Source: a virus. From it: a stretch of 36,109 nt of DNA. Shown here piece by piece: positions 1 through 34,748 of the stretch. A model generated the notes under the pieces. That model saw only the letters and a program-made list of their open reading frames with translations. It was not told where the DNA came from and did not search any database. The DNA lies in IMG/VR virus record IMGVR_UViG_3300025131_000183, positions 1 to 36,109 of that record; one strand, given 5' to 3'. The translations under genes were made by a program, and so were the position numbers. Within the stretch, counting starts at the first letter, position 1. Each line of letters begins with the position of its first letter.

Positions 1-3000
1 GGACTATACTGTAAGATAGGACTGTAACTTGCTCGACCTGCATCTATCCCACTTGGTAATTTTCCCGTTTCTGTAAAGAGTTCTTTCATCCCTTTGACTT
101 CCTTAGGATTTTCTACAACACTACCTTCTTTTGAAAGAGTTCTTTTAGGTTTTATATATTTAAATTGGTATTGCCATTTATTTGCTTTTGCATTTATTGC
201 ATGTCTGGATTTATCCCATCCTTCAAGTTTAGACCATTCTTCGGAAGAAATATCAGAAACTTTATAAGGAGATTTTGTAACTTTAACTAACAAAGTTTTC
301 CCATCTTTCCCTTTAAATTCAATAATATCTCCCTTTTCAATATCTTTAATTTGATTATATGTTCTACTGGTAGCTGTTCTATCTCCTGATTCTATTAAAT
401 CCATAGTAGATTTACCTTTAAATTCAGGTCTCATTTTATAATGAGAAGAAGGATAACCATCCCCATAAACCATTTGACTTGTAAATTTAGGTTTAATATT
501 TGTAGGATAAATTTCTTCTCCACCTACATAGAACTCTTCTTTCTGTTCTTCGTACATATTTTTCCAAGTCTTTTTCATACCATATTCTTCATCTCCAAAG
601 AACATATGAACCTTATCTCCGTCAAGGTCTGCCCCTCCCAATGCTCTCATCGTCCTTGGATGTAGCAATACTCCGTAGCCTACACGACCTGTAAAGCCCT
701 TAAATGTCAGTCTATGAGCACCAGATAAAGAATCCATCGGTACACGTAGCCCTATGCTTCTGAATATTTCCTTAGCTTCTTCCTTATTAGCATCCCACTT
801 ACCATCTCTGAACTCTTTCCAGAACTGCTCAAGTGTTTTAGACTTTCCTCCAAACAATCTTGACCAGATTTTCATATCTTTATATCCCTCATCAAGAAAG
901 AAAATATCATCCCTATCATTTAACAAGGACGTGTTGCCCTCCTTATTCTTTCTTTTTTGTAGCCATAAATCATACGGTCTCATAGCACCAGATAAACTAT
1001 TTTTCATCTTAGGCTTAGCTAACTGATTGACAACATAGTTCTGTATAACTTTTTCTATATAAGGTCTTGCAAATTTATGGTGAATGATAGCAATACTATT
1101 AGAATTAGTTTTCAGCATCCTGTCTACAACATGAGTAAATTCAGAATATTGACTCTGCCATTCCTCAGCCCCTGCTTTAGAGACCTCAGCTTCAGCCGCC
1201 ATTTCGTCAATGATATTAAGATTGATTCTCATTATCCTTTTATATGCTCCTATTGCAAAGGCTTCATTCCCGGGAGTTCTAAGACCTTCAAGTAAATGAG
1301 GTACACCTATCTTATCTATATTGTCTAATAGTTCTGTGCGTAAACTCTCATTAGCAGGGTTCTTAGAAAGATTACGCATCTTTATATTATACTCCACATC
1401 TTCAGGCTTTTGACCTTCAAATTCAATGCCAAGAAACCTGTCTCTCGCTACCCTACCAAAGATGTCTTCAATAGTCTTAGGATTTATATCCTTATATGCA
1501 AATGGTGTAAGATTTGACAACAACTGTTTTGGTATTCGCTGCTCATGTATACTATGCTCATTTTGTTTTGTACTATGTATATTATATACATCTTGTATAG
1601 GCAACTGGTATATATTTTTGTCACTCCCAAACTCTAACTTCCCCTTGTTCCAGTTGTAAGAATTAAACCGTCTGTTCCCCCATTGCTTAGCAGCAGACTT
1701 CGGTATCATCATATGTATACCATCGCCTCTTAGTCTCATCTCTTTAGATAATTCTGCTCCAGCAGCATGGAATGCATACTTACCAAGCAAAGCTCCTAAC
1801 TCTGGGTGCTTGCTTACGATGAACGACTTATTAAACCCAGCTATTTTTCTACCGTCTCTATTTAGATGGGGCAATCCTTGGTCTCTATTTATCATCTCAA
1901 GAACGTCATCCCTAACAAGGATGCCACCATCTGAAATCTCTGCATACTCTGTTGCTTTCGATTTATTTGTTAAGTTTTTTCCTTCTGCATCCTCGTACAA
2001 TATATACCTATAGTTACCATCGACAATATCAGGAGCAACAATGCTTTCAGGGTTACTGCGATACCCTGTGTTGAACCATATCTGAGCACGTTTGTTAAAA
2101 TTTTTCGCTGTATTTATAAAGCCATCACCAAGTGTATCACTCAATTTTGTTATGCCGTCTTTTAAATTCTTAACACCGCCGAAGTTTAATTCAGCTTCCC
2201 ATAATACATTAGATATGAATGCTTTTTTATAATCTGTTCGCAATTCCTTTTCAGTAATCTTTACTTCCGAATTTTTATCAACAGTTATAAACCTATCTAT
2301 AAAGCTTCTACCATCCTTATGGAATTCTTCTTCTATAACCTCACGCCCCTCCTTCTGTCCCCGTTCCTTTACTATCATATCTATTATTGTATCAAGCGCT
2401 GTATCAATAGTCTTCTCTTTAGTAGGTGTATTAGGATGGAACTTTACAAAGTAACGTCTTTCTGCATCACCCCTACCTCCAAAATAATAGTACCCATTTT
2501 CATTAGCCTGTTTCCACATACGTTGTTCTGTTTCTCGCATATAGCTATCTGCATAATCTTTATAGTAATTTCTCCAATCTTCTGGGTATTTCCTCTTAGC
2601 AACATTCTTAGCTCTCTCTATCTGCGCTCTTCTCCAATCTTCTAACCCTGTATATTCTTTTTCACCTTTGACAAAGTGGTCAAATATAAAATAAGCTGCT
2701 TCATTACTTCTTTCTCCTGTCACTCTTTCGGAAGACTCACCCCATGCTGTGTCTATTGGTTTCTCAGGCTCTACTAATTTCTTATCTGATACATTAGGGT
2801 CTAATAATCTTGTCTTTGTTTCATATCTTTTTAGTTTATGGTTGTATATTTGGTAGATACCAGCTAACATAACTGGTTTCCCCTTCATCCTCTGCTCACC
2901 CCACTGTCTCCAAAAGTCCTTAGCCTCTGTATCTAAACCTACTTTGTATTCCTTCTCAAGCCAGTTCACCATCTTTTCAGAAGGATTTTGTTTTTCCTTA

Positions 3001-4388
3001 GTAAGTAAACTACCCCAATGCTTCTGTACTGCTGAAGCAATCTCTATTTTTTTCTGTTCTCTTTCAAGAGGATTCTTTATTGTTTTGAGGGTGTCTTCAT
3101 AAGTTCTTTCAACAAAGTTTTCAGCTTTCAATATTATAGGTGTTCTTTCTATAGTCTCACCTATATCAGCATTAGTATTATCAGCAGATATGGTTCCATC
3201 TTTTAGTCGAGAGTCTTTTTTTACTGCTTCTCCGTATTCATTATACTCACCAGCAGTCTTCTTTTCGAAAGCAGCCATTTCTTTCTGAGCATCTACTACT
3301 GATATACCCTGTTCTTCTGCTATTGCGAAGACAAGAGCATCTCTTTCTGATGGCGTACCGAAAGATGTCAGAGTAGCTCTTCTAACTAAATCCTGTTCTC
3401 TTTTAGTAAGTGTATCCCACTCGGGTAATAGTTCTGGGTCTTTTGATATAGCTATCTCTGGGTCTTTTGCAGCCGCTTTACGCATCTTCTGAAGATACTT
3501 ACCCTGCATACGTGTCTCTTGAGGCATTTCACCAAAGCCGAAATAAGCACCAATGAGGTAATTATATATTTGTTCAGGTGTTGTCTCACCACGTACAGTA
3601 GAAGGCAAGCCCGTATATAAAGAAGAAGCCATCATCTTTATAGCTGTATCGCCTTGTTGTCCAGAGGATAATTTCTTCCACTTTGGTCTTCCACTGGGAC
3701 CAAGCTGATGAGGTTCTAACTTCTTGCCAAATCCTACCATATCTTTATTGATAAGATTCCCGATGCCTCTAAAGACAGCACCAGTCTCTGCTCCATGAAT
3801 AAAGCTGCTCATCATCTCGTCTACACCACCCTGCCATGCACCTACCGCACTTGCAACACCAAGGTGGAATCCACCTTCTATTATATCATGAAGTCTTTTG
3901 TTTTGTAAGAACCCTACAGCATCAGCAGTAGCACCTGCTCTTGCTACTCCAGCGGTTTTTAATACACCCTTTGTTGCCTTAGTAACTTTATTAGCCGCCA
4001 ACATAGGGATACTCTTACCACGGAGAGCTTGAGCAGCACCCACTAATTTCTGTGCTCGTAAAAGTTTGAATGGGAGGCTCGGGACATAGCCAACGAAGCC
4101 AGCGAGGTGCCCAATGTTTCTGGCTATTGCCTCCCATTCGTTCTTCGGTTGGTCCCCTATATTAAAAGTAGTGAAGCCAGAGAAGAACCCTGACCCTACC
4201 TGTGAAGCTAAGCTCGCTACACTTGCTGATAAATCAGCACGAGCAAAGGGGATGTTATAATGTGTTGCATGTCTCTCTATTAAATCGAGAGTCTTTTCGT
4301 CAAATTCCTGAGGAGAGTCTTGGTATTGCTTTATAGCTTTTTGTACAAATTCCTCTTTGACCGTAGGTTCAAAGTCATAAACGTACAT
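1..4388 (-). CDS. Giant virion protein with DLDGD two-barrel RNA polymerase motif (3' end outside window)
   Basis: The gene starts at ATG 4388 (GAGTAGCGG just upstream) and stays open for 1462 codons to the left edge, so the C-terminus is missing. Residues 1-200 are helical and Gly/Ala-rich with hydrophobic stretches, like ejected internal virion proteins. Near residues 893-957 are a MIPKSAAK element (K897, K901) and a RIPKQLLSNL element (K954) that could belong to the first barrel. Residues 1254-1258 read DLDGD, preceded by LHPRTMRALGGA and, about 30 residues earlier, by LRVPMDSLSGAHR, which recalls the RQPSLHR..AH element before the catalytic Asp triad of RNAP beta-prime. About 70 residues after DLDGD there is an ASCH-like segment (roughly 1326-1395: TATSR, then KGDIIEFKG). 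It follows the internal-protein genes. Known in the superfamily: DxDGD aspartates bind the catalytic Mg. Inferred: a packaged, injected RNAP. The polymerase call rests on motifs only. Confidence 0.62.
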   Translation of the reverse strand, partial: MYVYDFEPTVKEEFVQKAIKQYQDSPQEFDEKTLDLIERHATHYNIPFARADLSASVASLASQVGSGFFSGFTTFNIGDQPKNEWEAIARNIGHLAGFVGYVPSLPFKLLRAQKLVGAAQALRGKSIPMLAANKVTKATKGVLKTAGVARAGATADAVGFLQNKRLHDIIEGGFHLGVASAVGAWQGGVDEMMSSFIHGAETGAVFRGIGNLINKDMVGFGKKLEPHQLGPSGRPKWKKLSSGQQGDTAIKMMASSLYTGLPSTVRGETTPEQIYNYLIGAYFGFGEMPQETRMQGKYLQKMRKAAAKDPEIAISKDPELLPEWDTLTKREQDLVRRATLTSFGTPSERDALVFAIAEEQGISVVDAQKEMAAFEKKTAGEYNEYGEAVKKDSRLKDGTISADNTNADIGETIERTPIILKAENFVERTYEDTLKTIKNPLEREQKKIEIASAVQKHWGSLLTKEKQNPSEKMVNWLEKEYKVGLDTEAKDFWRQWGEQRMKGKPVMLAGIYQIYNHKLKRYETKTRLLDPNVSDKKLVEPEKPIDTAWGESSERVTGERSNEAAYFIFDHFVKGEKEYTGLEDWRRAQIERAKNVAKRKYPEDWRNYYKDYADSYMRETEQRMWKQANENGYYYFGGRGDAERRYFVKFHPNTPTKEKTIDTALDTIIDMIVKERGQKEGREVIEEEFHKDGRSFIDRFITVDKNSEVKITEKELRTDYKKAFISNVLWEAELNFGGVKNLKDGITKLSDTLGDGFINTAKNFNKRAQIWFNTGYRSNPESIVAPDIVDGNYRYILYEDAEGKNLTNKSKATEYAEISDGGILVRDDVLEMINRDQGLPHLNRDGRKIAGFNKSFIVSKHPELGALLGKYAFHAAGAELSKEMRLRGDGIHMMIPKSAAKQWGNRRFNSYNWNKGKLEFGSDKNIYQLPIQDVYNIHSTKQNEHSIHEQRIPKQLLSNLTPFAYKDINPKTIEDIFGRVARDRFLGIEFEGQKPEDVEYNIKMRNLSKNPANESLRTELLDNIDKIGVPHLLEGLRTPGNEAFAIGAYKRIMRINLNIIDEMAAEAEVSKAGAEEWQSQYSEFTHVVDRMLKTNSNSIAIIHHKFARPYIEKVIQNYVVNQLAKPKMKNSLSGAMRPYDLWLQKRKNKEGNTSLLNDRDDIFFLDEGYKDMKIWSRLFGGKSKTLEQFWKEFRDGKWDANKEEAKEIFRSIGLRVPMDSLSGAHRLTFKGFTGRVGYGVLLHPRTMRALGGADLDGDKVHMFFGDEEYGMKKTWKNMYEEQKEEFYVGGEEIYPTNIKPKFTSQMVYGDGYPSSHYKMRPEFKGKSTMDLIESGDRTATSRTYNQIKDIEKGDIIEFKGKDGKTLLVKVTKSPYKVSDISSEEWSKLEGWDKSRHAINAKANKWQYQFKYIKPKRTLSKEGSVVENPKEVKGMKELFTETGKLPSGIDAGRASYSPILQYS

Positions 4389-4395
4389 CCGCTAC

Positions 4396-5871
4396 TCAAT
4401 CTGTTAACATACTGTATAATTCAGGCATAGCTGCGGCAAGTTTAATAATATCATATGCAGCCCAAGCTGTTCCTGCTACACCAAGAACTGTTGAGGCAAG
4501 TTCTGGAACCGCCATGCCAACCGCGCTAATTCCCATTTTTGTAAGTATCTTTCTCCCAGCGCCAGACTTTTTAAGAACTGTCTTTATTGCAGTCATTCCT
4601 TCTTTTGACGTTATCTTCTTCATAACCTTAGACATAGAAAGACCACCGACAGCACCGCCAACAGTATCCGCCATCACGTTATCACCGGGCGTAAGTTTTT
4701 CCCCTATTTCATAACCTACCCTAAAGGGGAGATAACCTCTTCCGGCTTTCCCGCTTGTTATATTCTTCCAATTAGATGTCTTTTTGGTAGACGTCTTTTT
4801 GGTTGCTTTAGCTGCGTCATCAGACCAGTTATCTACAATGCCTTTGGTCTCATCTCGCATTAACCTTGCTGCTTTCAATGCTCTATCTCGAGCATGTATA
4901 TTTTTATACGGTTTCCCATCAGCTTTTTTATTACCCTTAATGGCGTTTACTTTTTTCTGCGCTTTTTCCAGTGCTGATTCAGCATCCTCTATAGAACTAT
5001 ATTTCCCAGAAGGACTTGCTGAAGTAGCTGCAGCTTCTTCAGCTATCGTCGCTGCCGTCTTCGCTGCCTTCTTCTCTGCTCTCGCAGGTGCCCCAGAAAT
5101 ATATTTATATGTACCATACCCTGTACCTGCTGCTAAAGCACCTCCTATAATTGGCGCATGTGCTCCAAGAAATGTAGACTCGTCAAAAACGTCCCATTGG
5201 TCATAGACATTTCGTTTCCATGTCCATTTTTTGTCTGCTTGAAAATCTATCTTTTCGGCTATTGAATTGAACTGTTCCGTACCATTAATAGAATTCATAT
5301 ATGATTTAAATTCTGGGTTTCCAAGCAGTAATCTTGAGTACTTTTTCTTTTCCCCCTCAGAAAAGTTACTATCAATGCCATTTATTATCTTAGCAGCTGT
5401 TCTATCTCTTTCAATTTTGGATTGAGTGTCAAACCATGTATTAAATTTATCTACATGATTGATATTAGAGTCACTATCATTAATAAACGCATTCTGCATC
5501 TCTTTCTTATTTCTGGGGAGAAAATTCATGCTGCCAAAAAGACCACTATTAAAACCCATCTCTCCAGTATTTTTATCAAAGACGAAAGCAGACTGGTCTG
5601 ATGAACCCGGTCCCATCTCAACTTCTAACTTATTAATATATTTTTTAGCATTTCTCGCTTCCTCTGCTCTTTGATTTTCCTTTTCATCCCATGCGAAACG
5701 CGTCTGTTGCATTTTTAGACCTTCTAATGCAATCGCATGTGCTCTATTTGCCTGTCTTTCTTTTTGTGCACGGTCTTTATTGCCTTGCACTGCGCTTATT
5801 GCAGACGCCATGCCTTTTTGAAATGAACCGCCAAAGTCTGAAACTTGTGGTCGTGCTGGTTGAAACGCCAT
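4396..5871 (-). CDS. Probable internal/ejected virion protein (491 aa)
   Basis: No family is recognised with certainty. The N-terminal 70 residues are Gln/Arg/Lys-rich and helical (FQKGMASAISAVQGNKDRAQ). A Gly/Ala hydrophobic stretch lies near residues 240-258 (GGALAAGTGYGTYKY). An Ala/Lys-rich helical region follows (about 262-345), and the last 45 residues form a long apolar stretch (AVPELASTVLGVAGTAWAAYD). Basic, helical proteins with buried apolar segments are typical of podovirus ejection proteins that cross or coat the envelope during DNA entry. The start codon overlaps the stop of the upstream 334-aa gene (TAATG), so translation is probably coupled. The next gene downstream is the giant RNAP-like protein, 7 bases away. 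Function is inferred from position and composition. Confidence 0.6.
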   Translation of the reverse strand: MAFQPARPQVSDFGGSFQKGMASAISAVQGNKDRAQKERQANRAHAIALEGLKMQQTRFAWDEKENQRAEEARNAKKYINKLEVEMGPGSSDQSAFVFDKNTGEMGFNSGLFGSMNFLPRNKKEMQNAFINDSDSNINHVDKFNTWFDTQSKIERDRTAAKIINGIDSNFSEGEKKKYSRLLLGNPEFKSYMNSINGTEQFNSIAEKIDFQADKKWTWKRNVYDQWDVFDESTFLGAHAPIIGGALAAGTGYGTYKYISGAPARAEKKAAKTAATIAEEAAATSASPSGKYSSIEDAESALEKAQKKVNAIKGNKKADGKPYKNIHARDRALKAARLMRDETKGIVDNWSDDAAKATKKTSTKKTSNWKNITSGKAGRGYLPFRVGYEIGEKLTPGDNVMADTVGGAVGGLSMSKVMKKITSKEGMTAIKTVLKKSGAGRKILTKMGISAVGMAVPELASTVLGVAGTAWAAYDIIKLAAAMPELYSMLTD

Positions 5872-12628: not shown

Positions 12629-13417
12629 TTATCCTTCTATTAATTGACCCCACAATGAGGTCTTTCCATTTATTATTTGTACTACATGTACGGTAAACAA
12701 TCCGCCTTGAAAGTAATCAACAACCGCGAAAGCGTGGCTCCAATTATGTTTTCTATTCATAAGCCAATCATTCTTTTCGTCTGACATGTCCTTTAAACAT
12801 CCGATACTCCATGCACTCTTCACACCATCAAGGTGTGTAACAGAGTTCTGTTGAATATCATGGTGATGTCCATACATCACATTAGCACCGAGCTTTAGCA
12901 AGTGATTTCTCGCATGAGTAATACCCGCGAAATGATTACCATGATAGTAGTACAGTTTTCCAATTTTCAAATATTTTCCCATTGGAAAATACTTATAACC
13001 ACGTTCATCGAGGTTCATCGCCTCCTTAAACATGATGTCACCGAGGTAAGGATTCTCATAAACGAATCTGTTTAACCAGTCGTCATGGTTCCCTTCCATT
13101 AAGTACTTTTCAGTACAGCTAACCTTATCCAAAGCCTCGTCTATCACATCCATATGTTTATTGACTACTTTTATGTCATCATAAACAAATGGGAGCTGAT
13201 ATTCAAGCGGAGGACGTCTCTTTTTTTTCCACTGCCAGTGAGCAACGGATGAGAATTCTCCGATGTCGCCGAGGTCTATATAAAAGTCCGGCTTGATGAT
13301 TTCTATACTCTTTGTCAAACAACTTATCGCCCCTTTATCATGAAGAGGGAAGTGTTTATCGGGCGATATAACACCTCTCCTTACTACACCCTTATCTAAT
13401 TTGGTAGTCCTTGCCAT
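12629..13417 (-). CDS. Calcineurin-like metallophosphoesterase
   Basis: 262 residues counted from ATG 13417, which has GGGAG six to seven bases upstream; the longer frame would begin at a TTG. The two-metal phosphoesterase motifs are all present in order: D20-K-H22 (SPDKHFP), G50-D51 (DLGDIGE), G-N-H-D at 109-112 (EGNHDDW), H159 (YYHGNH) and G-H-H-H at 183-186 (YGHHHD). Such enzymes are common in phages as phosphodiesterases or nucleases of unproven substrate. The gene overlaps the zinc-ribbon gene by 22 bases and is followed by the peptidoglycan-binding gene. Being placed in the late structural operon instead of a replication block is unusual. The fold call is strong; the substrate is unknown. 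Confidence 0.88.
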   Translation of the reverse strand: MARTTKLDKGVVRRGVISPDKHFPLHDKGAISCLTKSIEIIKPDFYIDLGDIGEFSSVAHWQWKKKRRPPLEYQLPFVYDDIKVVNKHMDVIDEALDKVSCTEKYLMEGNHDDWLNRFVYENPYLGDIMFKEAMNLDERGYKYFPMGKYLKIGKLYYYHGNHFAGITHARNHLLKLGANVMYGHHHDIQQNSVTHLDGVKSAWSIGCLKDMSDEKNDWLMNRKHNWSHAFAVVDYFQGGLFTVHVVQIINGKTSLWGQLIEG

Positions 13418-13683
13418 ATAGTCTCCCAATCGTCTAAGTTAAAATGTAATTCCTCTACCTTCTGCAAATGCTTTTTTGTAGTTTTTTGAGTGAATCTTAA
13501 TAAAAATTCCCCACAATTACCACATTCCCACAGTAAGTCTCCATCATAAGCGCCGAGTATCTCGACCCCTGATATATCTGTGAATCCACAGTAAGGACAC
13601 ACATCTGGCTTTATCCTCCAGAATTTGTTCCCCTTAATTCGAAACTTATCTAAGGGATGTTTTCCCATTTTTAGAAACCCCAT
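13396..13683 (-). CDS. Small zinc-ribbon protein
   Basis: 95 residues with two CxxC knuckles, C29-P-Y-C32 and C54-G-N-C57, separated by a 21-residue acidic/hydrophobic loop (GAYDGDLLWE), the classic layout of a treble-clef or zinc-ribbon. The N-terminus is basic (KMGKHPLDKFRIKGNKFWR). The start overlaps the end of the membrane-protein gene by 13 bases and the 3' end overlaps the phosphoesterase start by 22, so the two are probably made together. A partner or substrate-delivery role for the phosphoesterase is possible but not shown. ATG at residue 6 is an alternative start. Confidence 0.7.
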   Translation of the reverse strand: MGFLKMGKHPLDKFRIKGNKFWRIKPDVCPYCGFTDISGVEILGAYDGDLLWECGNCGEFLLRFTQKTTKKHLQKVEELHFNLDDWETIWQGLPN

Positions 13684-20743: not shown

Positions 20744-20948
20744 GTGTTGCCTCCATTAGTAGTTTATGGATATTTTGAATCTTTGTTAGCGTTTCGAACG
20801 CTTGCGCAACATCAGCTCCTGAAAAGTGTGCGTCTCTCAACGTCTTTATCAAGAGCTCTGTGTCACGTATATTCAGGGAAGAACCAGCTTTAGTAGCCGC
20901 TTCTTCCCTATTAAACAATAGCTGACTTCTCTTTATGTAGGCATCCAT
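20724..20948 (-). CDS. Small helical hypothetical protein (74 aa)
   Basis: An all-helical, charged sequence (YIKRSQLLFNREEAATKAGS, NIRDTELLIKTLRDAHFSG, VAQAFETLTKIQNIHKLL). Its start overlaps the stop of the 850-aa fibre gene (TAATG), so it is translated with it. Small helical proteins in this position are often fibre chaperones; none is recognised by sequence. Confidence 0.5.
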   Translation of the reverse strand: MDAYIKRSQLLFNREEAATKAGSSLNIRDTELLIKTLRDAHFSGADVAQAFETLTKIQNIHKLLMEATHETNGQ

Positions 20949-23500
20949 TACTCATCTACCACCATGTACATTACCCCACCAAAGGTCCCTGTTCTACCCA
21001 CAGAATAACTTGTAGCTGCTGGTGTATCTGCTGCTGTCATACCTACATGACCCATTTGCCGCGCACCTAAAGCAGTAGTTACTGTTGAGGCATAACTTGC
21101 GTCATCACCAAGTGCCGCAGCTAATTCATTCAATGTATTTAGGGCATCGGGTGCATCTCCAATGATGTTTGATGTAGCTGTTGTTACTGCAGCAGCCTTA
21201 GTCTCTGCCAAAGTACTACCACCAATTTTATCAGCATCTAATGTTTGGGCTGTTGCCCCAAACTTTAGTTTACCAGCAGCAACGGTAATTTCTTGGTCAA
21301 TCACGTTTCCAAGACCAATCCCAGATTTGCTAATCGAGATAGCTTCCCATTCTCCAGAAGTGACTGCATCGTCGCCTGCTGTAGTAGCCCTATACGATTT
21401 ATTCTCATCATCTGTATCATACCAGATATCACCCGCTGCTAAGGCTACAGGACATGCATCCTGTCTGAATGTCGATGTTTGCGCTTGGTCCAATACCTCT
21501 CCGAGTCCAATTCCAGTTTTAGTAAGTGTGATAGCTTCCCATTCTCCAGCCTTTGCTTCATTATCACCTGCAGCTGTCGCTGTATAAGACTTATTGTTGT
21601 CATCTGTATCAATCCAGATATCGCCTGCCGCTAAAGCTGTAGGAACATCATCTTGTCGGAATGTTGATGTCTGTGCTTGGTCTAAAACATCTCCGAGTCC
21701 AATCCCAGATTTGCTAATTGAGATAGCTTCCCATTCTCCAGACTCTACTGCATCATCACCTGCCGCCGTAGCTCTATACGATTTGTTCTCATCATCTGTA
21801 TCATACCAGATGTCACCAGCCGCTAAGGCTGTAGGACATGCATCCTGTCTGAATGTTGATGTCTGTGCTTGGTCTAATACATCTCCAAGTCCAATTCCAG
21901 TTTTAGTAAGTGTGATTGCTTCCCACTTTCCGCTTTCTACTGCATCATCACCCGCTGCAGTTGCGCAGTAACTCTTGTTCTCATCATCTGTATCGTACCA
22001 AATATCCCCAGCTGCTAAAGCTGTAGGAACATCATCCTGTCTAAATGTTGATGTCTGTGCTTGGTCTAAAACATCTCCAAGACCAACTCCACCTTTACTA
22101 ATTGAGATAGCTTCCCATTCTCCAGAAGTAACTGCATCATCACCCGCCGCAGTAGCCCTATACGATTTATTCTCATCGTTCGTATCGTACCAAATGTCAC
22201 CAGCCGCTAAAGCTGTAGGACAATCATCTTGTCTGAATGTTGATGTTTGTGCTTGGTCCAATACTTCTCCAAGACCAATCCCAGTTTTAGTAAGTGTGAT
22301 AGGTTCCCATTCTCCAGTCTCTACTGCATCATCACCTGCTGATGACGATGTATAAGACTTATTCTCATCACTTGTATCGTACCAGATGTCTCCCTCTGCT
22401 AAAGCTGTAGGACAAGTGTCTTGACGGAATGTTGATGTCTGTGGTTGGTCTAAAACATCTCCAAGACCAATCCCCTCTTTAGTAAGTGTGACTTTTTCCC
22501 ATTCTCCTGTTCCTACTGCATCATCACCTGCTGCAGTTGCTATATAACAGTTATTCTCATCATCTGTATCGTACCAAATATCACCTGCTGCTAAAGCTGT
22601 AGGAACATCGTCCTGTCTAAATGTTGATGTCTGTGGTTGGTCTAAAACATCTCCAAGACCAATCCCCTCTTTACTAAGTGTGATAACTTCCCATTCTCCA
22701 GTCTTTGCTTCATTATCACCTGCAGCAGTAGCGCAGTATGATTTATTTCCATCATCTGTATCGTACCAGATGTCCCCTGCTGCTAAAGCTGTAGGAACAT
22801 CGTCCTGTCTGAATGTCGATGTTTGTGGTTGGTCTAAAACCTCTCCGAGACCAATTCCAGTTTTAGTAAGTGAGATAGCTTCCCATTTTCCTGATGCTAC
22901 TTCAGCATCACCTGCCGTCGTAGCTCTATACGATTTCATCTCATCGTTTGTATCATACCAAACATCACCAGCCGCTAAGGCTGTAGGGCAATCATCCTGT
23001 CTAAATGTCGATGTTTGTGGTTGGTCCAATACATCTCCAAGACCAATTCCAGTTGCACTAAGTGTGATAGGTTCCCATTCTCCAGTTTTTACTTCGTTAT
23101 CACCAGCTGCAGTAGCATAGTATGATTTATTCTCATCATCTGTATCATACCAGATATCTCCTGCTGCTAAAGCTGTAGGAACAGCAGCTTGTCTGAATGT
23201 TGATGTCTGTGCTTGGTCTAAAACGTTGCCTAATCCAATAGAGGACGAGTCAAACGAACCCGACCCTGCATTATTTAAGGTAACTGTTCCATCGGCTGCA
23301 GTTAGCGTAATAGCACTGTTCTTTAAAGATGCCGCTGCATTGTCCTCCTTTAGGACATTGTTTTCGAATACGTCATCAGTAATATCTTTAGCTGCGGTAC
23401 CAGCTTGGGAACCAGATTTAATGTCCCCTACATCTTCTCCATCTACTTTCCCTAATAGGTCACCGTCTTGACGAAGAAGTGGTTTCCATTGTAAAGCCAT
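20948..23500 (-). CDS. Adhesin/fibre with ten tandem 64-residue repeats
   Basis: 850 residues. The N-terminal 89 residues (MALQWKPLLRQDGDLLGKVD, later SSSIGLGN) look like a virion-attachment segment. Residues 90-729 are ten head-to-tail copies of a 64-residue module with a TSTFRQDD.PTALAAGDIWY core and a D-E-N-K-S-Y...G-E-W-E ending, which resembles the GD(I/L)WYDT...W modules of phage tail and tip proteins. Residues 730-850 carry DAPDALNTLNELAAALGDD, a common fibre element, and the chain ends in FGGVMYMVVDE. Strong AAGGAG start site. The modules probably form a stacked stalk or multivalent binding surface. The exact ligand is unknown. Confidence 0.8.
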   Translation of the reverse strand: MALQWKPLLRQDGDLLGKVDGEDVGDIKSGSQAGTAAKDITDDVFENNVLKEDNAAASLKNSAITLTAADGTVTLNNAGSGSFDSSSIGLGNVLDQAQTSTFRQAAVPTALAAGDIWYDTDDENKSYYATAAGDNEVKTGEWEPITLSATGIGLGDVLDQPQTSTFRQDDCPTALAAGDVWYDTNDEMKSYRATTAGDAEVASGKWEAISLTKTGIGLGEVLDQPQTSTFRQDDVPTALAAGDIWYDTDDGNKSYCATAAGDNEAKTGEWEVITLSKEGIGLGDVLDQPQTSTFRQDDVPTALAAGDIWYDTDDENNCYIATAAGDDAVGTGEWEKVTLTKEGIGLGDVLDQPQTSTFRQDTCPTALAEGDIWYDTSDENKSYTSSSAGDDAVETGEWEPITLTKTGIGLGEVLDQAQTSTFRQDDCPTALAAGDIWYDTNDENKSYRATAAGDDAVTSGEWEAISISKGGVGLGDVLDQAQTSTFRQDDVPTALAAGDIWYDTDDENKSYCATAAGDDAVESGKWEAITLTKTGIGLGDVLDQAQTSTFRQDACPTALAAGDIWYDTDDENKSYRATAAGDDAVESGEWEAISISKSGIGLGDVLDQAQTSTFRQDDVPTALAAGDIWIDTDDNNKSYTATAAGDNEAKAGEWEAITLTKTGIGLGEVLDQAQTSTFRQDACPVALAAGDIWYDTDDENKSYRATTAGDDAVTSGEWEAISISKSGIGLGNVIDQEITVAAGKLKFGATAQTLDADKIGGSTLAETKAAAVTTATSNIIGDAPDALNTLNELAAALGDDASYASTVTTALGARQMGHVGMTAADTPAATSYSVGRTGTFGGVMYMVVDE
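21314..23233 (-). repeat. Ten in-frame copies of a 192-bp repeat
   Basis: Each copy encodes 64 residues with no gaps. Copies 7+8 and 9+10 follow the same alternating pattern (a DDVP copy ending ITLTKTGIG, then a DACP copy ending ISISKSGIG), which suggests that a two-module 384-bp unit was duplicated as a block. Confidence 0.9.
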
Positions 23501-28434: not shown

Positions 28435-28625
28435 TACTTCTTCTTCTTTTTACTTAAAATATTCTGTTTCCGTCTTGATTCATCAAGTTTACTACTCTGC
28501 CATTTATCACCAACATTGTTACTGCTGACAATACCCGGCGCTGGAGCAGTAGGGTCTCGATGGGGGGCACTCCAAATAAAGCACCCCCCAATCTTTTTAC
28601 TATTAGCTAAACGTGAGGACAGCAT
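28434..28625 (-). CDS. Small basic hypothetical protein after the capsid gene (63 aa)
   Basis: The product ends in a Lys-rich tail (SKLDESRRKQNILSKKKKK). The 3' end makes a TAATG overlap with the giant repeat protein, supporting translation. The start is less sure: the only ATG in frame is inside the last codons of the capsid gene and has no good Shine-Dalgarno, and a strong hairpin lies within the first third of the ORF. Function unknown. Confidence 0.45.
   Translation of the reverse strand: MLSSRLANSKKIGGCFIWSAPHRDPTAPAPGIVSSNNVGDKWQSSKLDESRRKQNILSKKKKK
28562..28589 (-). terminator. GC-rich hairpin directly after the capsid gene
   Basis: The transcript reads GGGGGGTGCT, an 8-base loop, then AGTGCCCCCC: ten base pairs counting two G-U wobbles. 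It begins 13 bases after the capsid stop. No U-run follows on this strand, so it may act as an mRNA 3' stabiliser or a weak attenuator instead of a full terminator. On the plus strand the wobbles become mismatches. Confidence 0.5.
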
Positions 28626-30039
28626 GTGTTTCTGGTAGTTGGACTTCCAGACCGGCTTCGGTCAGGATGATGTCTTTTCTTCCGTCAACATTGTTGTTCT
28701 GTACATTCGTAATAATATGAGTATCACGAGATACACCGTTACCCTGTAATGGGCGATAAGCCACATTTTTCATATCAATAACAAGTGCGGTATCTTCGTA
28801 CATACCTCTGAGCAAAGGCTCAGCGATAAAGTGAAGGTCTCCAAACACTGTATTAATCTTAGTAACCGAATGCCCGAAAGCACCCTTGATGTTCTGTGCA
28901 TCCATCCTATAGCTCGAAGCACCAATGGTATTACCTAAAAAAGAGCCTTTATCGCCGATTTTATTAAACCAAGCAATAATTTTGCGGGAAGCTAATACAA
29001 GCTTACTGCCACTATTGCCAGACTCAGGACTCATAAAGTCCTTAAGCCAGTCTAAAAACTCGTCGTATTTGGCGCCGGCGTCGTCGCCGTCTCCATAATC
29101 AAAAGCATTATTACTACCATCGTTATATCCATGCGCTTCAGCATAGGGCATGATACCCCACGAGTGTCTAACTGGTCCAGAAGCAGCTTCATCAGAACGT
29201 CCTATGCCATAAAGCATTGCATGCTCGATGTCCATTTTATGTTCCATGAGTTTTTCTTGCCAGACCCGTTTGTACTCGTCTGATTTACCACGATAACGTG
29301 TCGCCATAGCCGTACCAGAGAATAAAGGTATAGCAGTTTTAAAAATCTGCACATAACCTTCTCTATCGTACAATTCGTCCTTCCAACCCTCTGGGTCGGT
29401 TGAACCTTCAGCAAACGCAGAACCGATTACTTGACCTTTGTAGCCATCTGCAAAATGAAAAAAGTCAGAAGTATTATTAGCTTCTAATGCAGACCCGTCT
29501 AAAGAAACAGGTGTTACAGTAATCAAGGTTGAGCCTTCAGAAGCACCGGAACGAGCTGTACTCGCTCCAACTGTAGCTACTTTAGCAACCATACGTTTTT
29601 TTGCAGTACCAGCACCATCAACATCTGTACCAACATCAACTTCTAAGTCAACAAGTTGTCCTACAACAAAATAATTGGGAGCTTCTAAAACTGTGGAACT
29701 CCGTCCATATTTATCATAAGAACAACCAAACTCGATGCTAATATTGCTTATAGCACTTCCATTCCCTGCTACTACGTAAACGTCGCCGCCGTCATCGGCG
29801 GGGACTTCCGTTTCAACTTCGAAATTACGACGTTGCCATTGATGACGCTGTTCAAGAAACTTGAAAACCGGGTCGTCAGTAGGTTTTTTCGCAACTTTCG
29901 ACAAGTAGACAAAGAAAGGACTTTGCTGTGGGGCTAATTCTGCAATTCGTTCACCGAAGTTAAACATCCGTCTGGATTGGTCCATACTCACTGCTGAGTT
30001 TAGAGCATTTCCAGCACTAACACTATATTGGTCAGCCAT
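28603..30039 (-). CDS. Major capsid protein
   Basis: 478 residues with GGAGA before the start. The N-terminus (DQSRRMFNFGERIAELAPQQ, then SPFFVYLSKVAKKP) and a central E-rich helix (RVWQEKLMEHKMDIEHAMLY, GIGRSD) fit an HK97-fold capsid subunit; the C-terminal domain (KINTVFGDLHFIAEPLLRGM, TALVIDMKNVAYRPL) recalls the SU10/DUF5309 type. It sits between scaffold and connector genes, the normal order. The length is ordinary for a capsid protein without a fused protease. The subfamily assignment is tentative. Confidence 0.85.
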   Translation of the reverse strand: MADQYSVSAGNALNSAVSMDQSRRMFNFGERIAELAPQQSPFFVYLSKVAKKPTDDPVFKFLEQRHQWQRRNFEVETEVPADDGGDVYVVAGNGSAISNISIEFGCSYDKYGRSSTVLEAPNYFVVGQLVDLEVDVGTDVDGAGTAKKRMVAKVATVGASTARSGASEGSTLITVTPVSLDGSALEANNTSDFFHFADGYKGQVIGSAFAEGSTDPEGWKDELYDREGYVQIFKTAIPLFSGTAMATRYRGKSDEYKRVWQEKLMEHKMDIEHAMLYGIGRSDEAASGPVRHSWGIMPYAEAHGYNDGSNNAFDYGDGDDAGAKYDEFLDWLKDFMSPESGNSGSKLVLASRKIIAWFNKIGDKGSFLGNTIGASSYRMDAQNIKGAFGHSVTKINTVFGDLHFIAEPLLRGMYEDTALVIDMKNVAYRPLQGNGVSRDTHIITNVQNNNVDGRKDIILTEAGLEVQLPETHAVLTFS

Positions 30040-31010: not shown

Positions 31011-33185
31011 TTATTTTCCTTTTTTAGAGCCCTTACTGGATTTAGGGGTATCTTTAGTTTCTTTGGAGGCTTCATTGACCTCCTTGCGTATCATTCCAGT
31101 CGCATCATCAAGACGTTTTTCGAATACAGTTCCTGCCGCTTTAGCGCGGGTTGAAGTCTTATCCAAATCACCCTTGAATTTCTCGAGTTCAGCTTTCTGC
31201 TTAGCGTGATAAACTTCACGTTCTCGAGTCTGAAGGTCGCCCTTAAGTTCTTTTATTTGTCCCTGAGCTTGTTCGACCGCTTGCTCAAGTTTGGCGATTG
31301 TATCCGTCCGTTCAAGAACGCCTTCAATGTCGAAGACTTCCGTCTTCTTTAGCACTTCCTGCCTGTCAATAAGACCGTTTTTATATGCGTCCATATATAA
31401 CTCAAGCTGAGCATAACGATTGGTTGGTAGAGTAGAGCCTGTAACAATAACAACGTCATAATTTCCAACGGTAATATCATTAAAAACACCTATCTCATTC
31501 CCCTTATCGTCATACAGCTTTTTGTTTATTGCAATCTCAGACATACTATTATTCGGCTGGACTACACGTGCTACTTTTTCAGTAGTATATAACTGTTGCA
31601 TTAGAGGTATGATGACCTCAGCAGCACGTCTTAAACCTGCTTCTATATCCATTAACTTGGATTTCATCTTACGTTGCCCAAATTCATCAAGGCTGATAGT
31701 GGCTTTATACGTATGCGGGGCTACAGATGAGTTACCCATCATCATCTCGTATAATCCAAGTTGGTGGTCTATATCGTTTTTAGCAGTCTGCTCATTCTGA
31801 TACAGCTCATTTGGTAAAGGTAATGGCTGTACAGGCGTAGGGTTCCCTTGGTCGAAGTCAACTTCTATAGCCACTCCCGGTTGAGCCCACTTCTGCTCAA
31901 ATTCTCTCATATCCACACTCCCGCTGGGTACAAGAATTTTAACATTCGTCGAAGTTGTAGCGTGAGCTATAATCAGACTTCGAGTCTTATTAATGTATTC
32001 CTGCATATCCTTTACCATTCTTACATCTGATATAGGATATGGTGTTCTGGTATGCAAATTCATAAAAGGGACAACTGGAAAATGCTCAGTAGGTAGAACT
32101 CTTTCATATAGCATCTTATCACCCATAATAACACACATCTTAACCCTTGGCTGTTCTACCTCGATTGCTTCCACTGCCTTCTGTATAATGAGGTCTGCAA
32201 AAGAAAGTTTCTTCACATCGGGTGGAGGGACTTCATTAACAGACTGCCCTTCAATCTCAGCTTTTTTCTTCTGTTCGGCAAAAACCTGTGTTAACTTACC
32301 CATCATTCTTTCTGCCGTTGAGGGGTCGTCAACTATCTGACCATGAATAAGCCAAACAGGTTTCTGACAGTACTCGAGGAAGTCTTCTTCGTCAAGCAAT
32401 AGTTCTTTATCATCGTGCAACTGATGAATAAGATGATACTTAATCATCTCTTTATGATATCTCTCATATCCACGTATATATTCATCTGATTCCCCCCAAC
32501 CAACGGCTCGAGTAGTAGTTTCGGTATCTTCTGGGAAGATTGCCCCAACTTCTTCACGACTACGTCCAGTTGAGGGTTTATCAGAATACATATCTGTCTG
32601 GGCATTTTTAATAGCCTTTTCGTACATGGGATACATTCTTATGGCTTGGTCCTTCGTAAACATACGAGAGACAATGATGTTTTCCGCATCGTCAAGCATT
32701 CGAGTACGACTATTTGGGTCTACATAAACATCAAGAGGGTCTAAATCTCTTATCTTTACCTCACCCTTGCCTTTATCAGCATTCGGGTCTTGATAAACTT
32801 GCATATACCCTACTCCACAGACGTAATAATCATCAATAATATTTCTTAGTGCCGTATTACCATCGCTAATTGCCCAGATATACTCCAGCATACCATTCAT
32901 TACCTGTGCAACTCTATTATCAGAATCTTCTCTCGGTGAAACGCGAAAACTTGGCTTATTAGTTGTAAGCATCGCTTTCGCAGCTTCTACTGCCGGGTGT
33001 ATCCTATTTACAACAATAGGAGCCTGTCCACGTTCTGATAGAATACGCTTTTGCTCAGCAGTCCACTGGACTCCGAGCCTAAACTCTCTATCCTCTTGAG
33101 CATGTAATGCCCACTTATCCCTCGAAGAAGAATACTGTCTGAATAGGTTATGGGTCTCTTCGACCTTTTTTGTTAGCTTAGCCAT
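31011..33185 (-). CDS. Portal protein (P22-like)
   Basis: 724 residues, close to the 725 of the P22 portal. Features include RQYSSSRDKWALHAQEDREF near the start, VVNRIHPAVEAAKAML, TTNKPSFRVSPRE, a clip/stem region (SLDEFGQRKMKSKLMDIEAG), and a long C-terminal coiled coil (about 620-700) ending in a Lys/Ser tail (KGSKKGK). The portal forms the dodecameric DNA channel at one capsid vertex and docks terminase. There is no convincing Shine-Dalgarno; an 11-codon ORF overlaps the start. It lies 42 bases after terminase and 4 before scaffold. Confidence 0.88.
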   Translation of the reverse strand: MAKLTKKVEETHNLFRQYSSSRDKWALHAQEDREFRLGVQWTAEQKRILSERGQAPIVVNRIHPAVEAAKAMLTTNKPSFRVSPREDSDNRVAQVMNGMLEYIWAISDGNTALRNIIDDYYVCGVGYMQVYQDPNADKGKGEVKIRDLDPLDVYVDPNSRTRMLDDAENIIVSRMFTKDQAIRMYPMYEKAIKNAQTDMYSDKPSTGRSREEVGAIFPEDTETTTRAVGWGESDEYIRGYERYHKEMIKYHLIHQLHDDKELLLDEEDFLEYCQKPVWLIHGQIVDDPSTAERMMGKLTQVFAEQKKKAEIEGQSVNEVPPPDVKKLSFADLIIQKAVEAIEVEQPRVKMCVIMGDKMLYERVLPTEHFPVVPFMNLHTRTPYPISDVRMVKDMQEYINKTRSLIIAHATTSTNVKILVPSGSVDMREFEQKWAQPGVAIEVDFDQGNPTPVQPLPLPNELYQNEQTAKNDIDHQLGLYEMMMGNSSVAPHTYKATISLDEFGQRKMKSKLMDIEAGLRRAAEVIIPLMQQLYTTEKVARVVQPNNSMSEIAINKKLYDDKGNEIGVFNDITVGNYDVVIVTGSTLPTNRYAQLELYMDAYKNGLIDRQEVLKKTEVFDIEGVLERTDTIAKLEQAVEQAQGQIKELKGDLQTREREVYHAKQKAELEKFKGDLDKTSTRAKAAGTVFEKRLDDATGMIRKEVNEASKETKDTPKSSKGSKKGK

Positions 33186-33227: not shown

Positions 33228-34745
33228 CTACATACTTAACCAGTCAAGCATTTTATTATGTTTTTTTATTGGGGCTTCTGGGTCAAACTCTTTTACCCTG
33301 CAAGGCTTTGCTCCGTCAAGAGCATAAAAGATAGCATCCATGCAATCATCATGCTTCCCTTTTGGATACGAAAGAAATTCTTGCTGAACTTCGATATCCT
33401 GTGTCCTAAAAAAGAAATCACCCTTTGCAAGGGGAGGTACTAAAGACAATAACCTTTCACTCTTCCTTGTACGAGGCTTTACCCCTTTTTCAAGACCGGG
33501 AATGTACATGTTACTCTGAAACATGATTTTCCTTGTTGCATCCCTCAGTGCCTCCTGATAGCCTGTAGTCTCGACTTTCATCCTCTTTGGTTTATATTTC
33601 TTGTACATATCTATAATTTTCTGAGGTTGTTCTGCAGGAGAGAGTCTATGGCGGAAAACATCCACAATATAAATGTTCCCGTCGCTATCAAGACCGAGTA
33701 TAGCAATAACAAAAAAGTCAGCCCTATCAGAAAGACTACTTGCTGGGTCAATTCCAGCATATAGTTCAACGGGCTTAATTTTTTTATCCCCATCTATATA
33801 CCTCACTAAACAATTCTGACCCTTTATCCTCTCAAAACTATAATGATGCAATCTTATGTATTCAGGTCGAAATGGAGCATTATCTGGAGCCTGAGCTTCA
33901 TTCATATACTCCTGAAAAAACCCATTCAGGTTGCCAACACTCTCAAACTCTGCTTTTATATCATGAATCCTTGACATTGGGAACCTATCTTCCCAGATAC
34001 TTTCTCCACTGTCATCTGTAATACTAAACCATAAAACTGTCCATGCGGGACTTTCTTTAGCCCAGTATAGAAAACAATCTTCACTAATAACGGTACCTAT
34101 CATTACAATTCTACCATCATCCGATAAAGAAGGGATAACAGCTTCAGTTATCCATTTTCTATTCTTGGCACGAGCTTCCGGGGTAAAAGCATTTAATTCA
34201 GACTCGAAGTCATCAACAATAATAAGATTAGGACGAGTATCACCCTCTATGAATCCTCTGACTCGTTGTCCAGTCCCGACAGCCACGATTCTGGTTCCAT
34301 TAGCGAGAACAATATCTCCCCCAGTCCATCGTTGGGCTGTATGAGGACCCATATCTCCGAAGAGTTTTTTGAAGTTATCCGAATGCTGGAGATGATATTT
34401 AATTCTGCTAAGAAAGTTAATAGACTGCGTTTGGCTCTCGGAAATGATAACAATAAATAAGTCTTCTTCGGGTTTCTTGAAAGCTGCTTTATACAGGGGG
34501 AGTATGAGTGAACATACAGTACTTTTCGCTGTTCCTCTGGGCGCTGCAATTAAACAACGCCTATTTTTAGGATTAATGATAGCTTCATAGACTTCTGAGT
34601 GAAACGGGGGTATATCACGCTTTAGAGCCGTTGGAAAACAGAATTTTCCAAATAACCCCATATTCTTCCTAAACTTTTTAAGAATCTGGAGTTTTTCATA
34701 ATATTCTTCATAATCATCCTGTGTTGATGTCGCATTTTGAGACAT
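33228..34745 (-). CDS. terL: Terminase large subunit
   Basis: 505 residues from ATG 34745, which overlaps the stop of the 158-aa gene (TGATG); the longer frame uses TTG. ATPase: Walker A AAPRGTAKST (67-76, K74), Walker B LIIVDD (174-179) with E181, and a coupling MIGT at 215-218. Nuclease: D333 in YAGIDPASS, E392 in KVETTGY and HDDCMDA (D466, D467, D470). The enzyme cuts concatemers and drives DNA into the procapsid through the portal. The motifs are complete, so it should be active. The small subunit is not recognised among the upstream ORFs. Confidence 0.95.
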   Translation of the reverse strand: MSQNATSTQDDYEEYYEKLQILKKFRKNMGLFGKFCFPTALKRDIPPFHSEVYEAIINPKNRRCLIAAPRGTAKSTVCSLILPLYKAAFKKPEEDLFIVIISESQTQSINFLSRIKYHLQHSDNFKKLFGDMGPHTAQRWTGGDIVLANGTRIVAVGTGQRVRGFIEGDTRPNLIIVDDFESELNAFTPEARAKNRKWITEAVIPSLSDDGRIVMIGTVISEDCFLYWAKESPAWTVLWFSITDDSGESIWEDRFPMSRIHDIKAEFESVGNLNGFFQEYMNEAQAPDNAPFRPEYIRLHHYSFERIKGQNCLVRYIDGDKKIKPVELYAGIDPASSLSDRADFFVIAILGLDSDGNIYIVDVFRHRLSPAEQPQKIIDMYKKYKPKRMKVETTGYQEALRDATRKIMFQSNMYIPGLEKGVKPRTRKSERLLSLVPPLAKGDFFFRTQDIEVQQEFLSYPKGKHDDCMDAIFYALDGAKPCRVKEFDPEAPIKKHNKMLDWLSM

Positions 34746-34748
34746 CAA
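34730..34748. repeat. 19-bp direct repeat, left copy at the terminase start
   Basis: Identical to 35962-35980. It contains the terminase ATG and its first four codons. The two copies enclose 1213 bases carrying three small genes. Confidence 0.85.

Follow-up and report, generated by a model that had tools for sequence, protein, structure and literature searches.

Single-chain RNA polymerases (RNAPs) of the two-barrel superfamily that are carried in virions have so far been described from crAss-like phages and from one Thermus phage. Here we describe a giant gene at the edge of IMG/VR record IMGVR_UViG_3300025131_000183, a 36.1-kb phage fragment (36,109 nucleotides; hereafter the window) whose long open reading frames (ORFs) lie nearly all on the minus strand. 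The gene very probably encodes a single-chain two-barrel RNAP within a giant (~3000-aa) late virion protein of a ~53-kb podovirus-like phage, an enzyme that would enter with the DNA for early transcription.

The closest described system is gp66 of the crAss-like phage phi14:2 (PDB 6VR4), a single chain with two double-psi barrels which, as summarised in PMC10770324 and PMC7886860, is encoded among virion proteins, enters with the DNA and transcribes early genes. Thermus phage P23-45 gp96 likewise holds a two-barrel RNAP in a giant virion protein (PMC10770324), but there the polymerase is N-terminal in the tape measure protein, whereas here it occupies the centre of a giant protein, and the phage is podovirus-like. 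Entry with the DNA and transcription of early genes have been shown for gp96 too. YonO, from Bacillus phage SPbeta, is also a single-chain two-barrel RNAP with a DxDGDK motif, but is a non-virion enzyme of 839 aa. QDE-1 and the eukaryotic RNA-dependent RNA polymerases (RDRs; PF05183) share the single-chain two-barrel fold and a GGxDLDGD-type motif, but are cellular RNA interference (RNAi) enzymes with no virion role. The virion RNAP of N4, gp50, is similar in layout: PMC5512222 gives it a 998-aa N-terminal injection region, an 1100-aa polymerase and a 1400-aa encapsidation region, so that both are giant late proteins in which a central polymerase is flanked by N- and C-terminal parts, all three being of similar size in the two proteins. 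The N4 enzyme, likewise shown to enter with the DNA and transcribe early genes, has an unrelated T7-type fold, however, whereas our fold search returned two-barrel RNAPs.

The giant gene and its family

The window truncates the gene, but the uncut gene was found on the overlapping contig IMGVR_UViG_3300025141_000248 (L002:10001-19153), which is 99.986% identical to the window across 35,476 bases. Its 3050 codons encode a 3050-aa protein (P0002) with a three-part layout: an N-terminus of ~630 aa, a polymerase of ~1000 aa and a C-terminus of ~1400 aa. The features that fall within the window are:

3..4388, minus strand: giant two-barrel RNA polymerase gene, ATG start, truncated at the window edge (codons 1-1462 of 3050)
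2502..4388, minus strand: N-terminal region, residues 1-629, of low conservation, glycine/alanine-rich at ~50-215
1509..1946, minus strand: first double-psi barrel (DPBB-A), residues ~815-960, with DGG, NKSFIV...GALLGKY, K901 and PKQ(L/M) motifs
1779..1781, minus strand: K870, invariant, candidate active-site lysine
1686..1688, minus strand: K901, invariant, candidate second active-site lysine
564..773, minus strand: core of the second double-psi barrel (DPBB-B), residues 1206-1275, RVPMDS.SGA..L.F.GFTG..G.G.LLHPRTM.ALGGADLDGDK
615..629, minus strand: DLDGD with D1254, D1256 and D1258, predicted Mg2+-binding aspartates
159..506, minus strand: ASCH-like accessory insert, residues 1295-1410 (Pfam ASCH E 0.04, below the cut-off), absent from most relatives

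A first-pass annotation of the window had placed DLDGD at residues 1254-1258 (bases 615-629) in a GGADLDGDKV context, with a further element about 30 residues earlier; the translation contains both, the latter as LRVPMDSLSGAHR at residues 1214-1226, and has lysines at 897, 901 and 954. Its guess at a first barrel around lysine-bearing elements at 897-901 and 954 agrees with the position that we assign (~815-960). Two of these lysines, K901 and K954, do not vary in the family; at position 897 relatives usually have Glu.

Relatives were collected by scanning IMG/VR with the DLDGD region (127 encoding stretches, 80 kept) and with the family alignment (195 encoding stretches, 80 kept). Because GADLDGD is encoded by all 80 loci kept from the former scan, the motif is not a chance occurrence. 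The distinct complete family proteins (n = 66) have a median length of ~2980 residues and range from 2471 to 3587. Among 40 representatives, invariant residues cluster at 765-960 (NKR.Q.W; DG; NKSFIV; GALLGKY; AAKQ.G.R; PKQ) and 1215-1270 (RVPMDS.SGA..L.F.GFTG..G.G..LHPR.M.ALGGADLDGDK), with further clusters at 1463-1485, at 1548-1560 (SDPMDE) and in the C-terminal region (2600-3030). The 39 diverse cores all keep the three DLDGD aspartates and the lysines K870, K901 and K954, and K854 is also invariant or nearly so. Relatives are ~42-55% identical to the window's protein in the C-terminal part and 31-40% in the polymerase part.

Single-sequence searches of Pfam, PHROGs and the PDB returned nothing useful, and the A1 profile did no better with PDB sequences; Pfam, PHROGs and the GenBank phage set held no family or match covering the polymerase. 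Two unnamed UniProt entries, A0A516LW39 (26% identity) and A0A516LAI4 (24%), were the first two Foldseek matches among viral models; because they match the C-terminal part as well as the polymerase, the family is present in the databases, yet unnamed. Two scans of bacterial and archaeal genome contigs gave no relative and hence no host or prophage. No hydrophobic stretch of transmembrane grade was found in the protein, whose N-terminal region may have a role in injection.

Fold, active site and nearest relatives

An AlphaFold model of residues 630-1650, computed from an alignment of 39 sequences, reached a predicted local distance difference test (pLDDT) of 80 and a predicted template modelling score (pTM) of 0.81. 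In the model the invariant DLDGD joins a short helix to a strand of the barrel, the placement expected of the superfamily's DxDxD motif, which lies on a double-psi barrel loop. A 37-residue helix (P0002 1463-1499, beyond the window edge) comes after this barrel, a position that fits a bridge helix.

The best Foldseek match in the PDB was phi14:2 gp66 (E 9.3e-9), followed by QDE-1 (5e-5 to 4e-4) and ZmRDR2 (1.4e-2); weaker matches were the AR9 non-virion RNAP (weak) and cellular beta-prime chains. Among viral models, several crAss-like phage proteins appeared beside the unnamed UniProt members. The structural alignments with gp66 and with QDE-1 cover 520-1080 columns. In QDE-1 the active site includes Q736, K743 and K767 of the first barrel and D1007, D1009 and D1011 of the second (PMC1750930). 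Going by motif order rather than superposition, we propose K870 as a candidate counterpart of QDE-1 K743 or K767, and K870 and K901 as candidate active-site lysines.

Profile comparisons pointed to the same relatives. In HHalign the family profile scored 54.3 with a set of 69 crAss-like RNAPs, compared with at most 27.0 for 20 block-shuffled controls and 25.9 for the reversed one. The 150 residues around the motif scored 28.0 (at most 18.2 in 40 shuffles) over 59 columns without a gap, a match of the form R(V/I)P...G(A/S)D(L/F)D(G/I)DK. In the aligned barrel columns, RVPMDSiSGAh.L.F.GFTG...GADLDGDKAfiFF of the family faces RIPNQGQSSNDPLQIVGILP...GSDFDIDKMYVML of the crAss-like enzymes; the latter have DFDID in place of DLDGD, and the flanking parts differ. 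P23-45 gp64 was marginal in the profile comparison and gp96 did not rise above shuffles. A relation to YonO was rejected, its profile score lying within the shuffles.

Of 24 contigs, 6 matched the Pfam RdRP profile PF05183 at the second barrel, none of them passing the cut-off (per-contig E 1.4e-5 to 2e-3); the one control genome to give a match was that of B. subtilis, which hosts YonO's prophage. Rpb1_2 (PF00623) had no match in 16 records and matched 14 of 14 controls, and PF00940, for T7-type polymerases, had no match in 13 records, with no positive control giving a match either.

Together, the model, the top Foldseek matches and the profile match to crAss-like RNAPs support the first-pass assignment to the single-chain RNAPs of the two-barrel superfamily. 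Neither outcome that it had named as refuting, DLDGD off a double-psi barrel loop or a lack of profile homology to two-barrel polymerases, was observed. Of the two families it had named for profile comparison, crAss-like RNAPs scored above all shuffles, whereas no YonO-specific relation was detected. The lineage is divergent, as had been supposed, but not isolated, its nearest relatives being the crAss-like RNAPs.

Genome context and competing explanations

The gene order in the window runs from the terminase large subunit through a P22-like portal, the head protein and tail-fibre and other structural genes to endolysin-like and chaperone-bearing genes, with the polymerase gene last. Four of these co-directed genes are:

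33228..34748, minus strand: terminase large subunit (PHROG 38, E 2e-90)
31011..33185, minus strand: P22-like portal protein (PHROG 156, E 5e-87)
28603..30039, minus strand: major head protein (PHROG 1328, E 1e-18)
4396..5871, minus strand: 491-aa gene directly upstream of the RNAP gene; six other loci have a relative of it beside theirs

The 491-aa product is likely an internal virion or ejection protein. Of 81 distinct loci, 74 have the two ORFs preceding the polymerase gene co-directed with it. The polymerase gene shares its strand with the structural genes, at or near the operon end, in five related contigs. In the four of these that extend past it, an oppositely directed module comes next, and in the one annotated (G010) this module holds a primase-helicase, a Sak4-like gene and other replication genes. 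A contig of 53,236 bases with a short end repeat suggests a genome size of ~53 kb. That size, the P22-like portal and a head protein closest to that of Roseobacter phage CRP-810, with no crAss match, set this phage apart from Crassvirales and from the phages that carry the crAss-like virion RNAP.

Two other genes of the window drew our attention. A metallophosphoesterase-like gene with a TTG start (12629-13429; PHROG 221, E 1e-18) lies among the structural and lysis genes, and an 850-aa tail-fibre-like gene (20948-23500) aligns with itself at 80-83% identity at a 384-bp shift, corresponding to repeats of ~128 codons.

What the computation itself establishes is the fold class, the family, the conserved catalytic motif and the operon position. 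From these we infer packaging, injection, early transcription and the use of DNA as template by analogy with phi14:2, P23-45 and N4; operon position and protein layout are the two observations that bear on packaging and injection. The enzyme would be translated late, packed into the head and ejected before or with the DNA, the N-terminal part and the long conserved C-terminal part serving head packaging and cell entry; in the cell it would refold and transcribe the early genes. In catalysis, D1254, D1256 and D1258 would bind Mg2+ where the two double-psi barrels meet, the first-barrel lysines K870 and K901, perhaps with K854 and K954, would hold phosphates, and the long helix that follows the second barrel at once would act as the bridge helix.

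Several observations weigh against this reading. The crAss-like profile match is convincing around the catalytic barrel only, and the Foldseek TM-scores for gp66 are modest (0.38/0.20), although low values may be expected when distant relatives have shifted their domains. The model of the C-terminal part reached a pTM of 0.46, with convincing fold matches to family members only; because this model is weak, the packaging role of that part is proposed by analogy. No promoter motif common to the early genes was found, k-mer counts in four genomes equalling those of shuffles. Repeats look like chance pairs, and the 44 sigma-70-like sites counted in one early region, where 41.5 are expected, are uninformative in AT-rich DNA. 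Finally, the open-licence literature searched yielded neither biochemical nor virion data for the family, of which an earlier description elsewhere is possible.

The protein might instead be a two-barrel RNAP that stays out of the virion, made late for late transcription inside the cell. This is what YonO does with late genes (PMC5467207), and P23-45 gp64, which is absent from virions (PMC10770324), demonstrates that single-chain two-barrel RNAPs can go unpackaged. We nevertheless consider it unlikely: the gene is itself part of the late operon, and it encodes ~2000 non-catalytic residues, partly very conserved, as in packaged giant proteins, whereas YonO (839 aa) and gp64 (616 aa) have no such parts. 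As an aside, gp64 (L084:291-2141) is still named 'head protein' in RefSeq, though proven to be a non-virion RNA polymerase.

PolD was absent among the 50 best Foldseek matches listed, the matches being RNAPs. A PolD-like two-barrel DNA polymerase or primase is also hard to reconcile with the long bridge-type helix after the barrel, with the crAss virion RNAP as nearest family and with the separate primase-helicase of a related genome. PolD does have the two barrels (PMC10770324), and a scan of early genes from one related genome recognised no DNA polymerase, but we regard this reading as very improbable. Even less credence is due to a degenerate polymerase kept as a structural or ejection protein: the better conservation of the C-terminal part (~42-55%, against 31-40% for the polymerase part) would suit it, but not the invariance of the three aspartates, K870, K901 and K954.

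Accessory inserts and the possible origin of the giant polymerase

Returning to the probable virion polymerase, the spacer between its catalytic barrel and the bridge-type helix is 30-80 residues long in most members and ~170 in the window's protein, which here carries its ASCH-like insert. CrAss phage cr272_1 has a domain 42% identical to this insert within its giant protein of RNAP type. In cr272_1 (L003, annotated coding sequence 53236-72396), GSDFDID is followed by the ASCH-like domain ~1600 residues on; the giant gene has in-frame stop codons under table 11, and stop recoding is suggested. Other members carry different domains:

L012:5624-9736 (core): cpYpsA SLOG (E 2e-27) and a weak DUF4326, directly after the DLDGD barrel
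L037:8240-11323: DUF4326 (E 1e-5), directly after the DLDGD barrel
L031:13205-15898: cpYpsA in the C-terminal part
L056:13262-15982: cpYpsA in the C-terminal part

These inserts recall the polyvalent proteins of phages, among which PMC5512222, in its part on such proteins, names only N4-like RNAPs.

In three cultured phages whose head protein is a distant relative, CRP-810, Kuura and VS-ABTNL-3, a similarly placed giant gene near the structural operon end lacks DxDGD (L340:14062-20112, L341:18477-22553, L342:17815-23187). VS-ABTNL-3 PVS_24 showed weak collinear similarity to the C-terminal part (hidden Markov model E 0.009, hhalign 0.016). We do not claim C-terminal homology to PVS_24, Kuura_021 or CRP-810 gp35, the similarity being suggestive for PVS_24 only; it hints that the polymerase may have been gained or lost within a giant ejection protein.

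Set beside N4, the family suggests that packaged polymerases within giant ejected proteins arose more than once, from unrelated folds. Podovirus-like phages could, independently of N4, have built a three-part packaged machine on a crAss/QDE-1-type polymerase, with a site beside the catalytic barrel repeatedly accepting small-molecule-related domains (SLOG, DUF4326 and ASCH-like) that may modulate early transcription or act against nucleotide-signal defence of the host; we put this forward tentatively, at somewhat less than an even chance. The family adds to the known two-barrel enzymes a widespread group from compact phages that has no annotated database family and resembles crAss-like RNAPs and QDE-1. 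Its more than 80 distinct sequences make a good alignment for tracing the divergence of cellular and RNAi polymerases, and in the inserts next to its active site nature offers ready-made experiments on how modular a polymerase can be.

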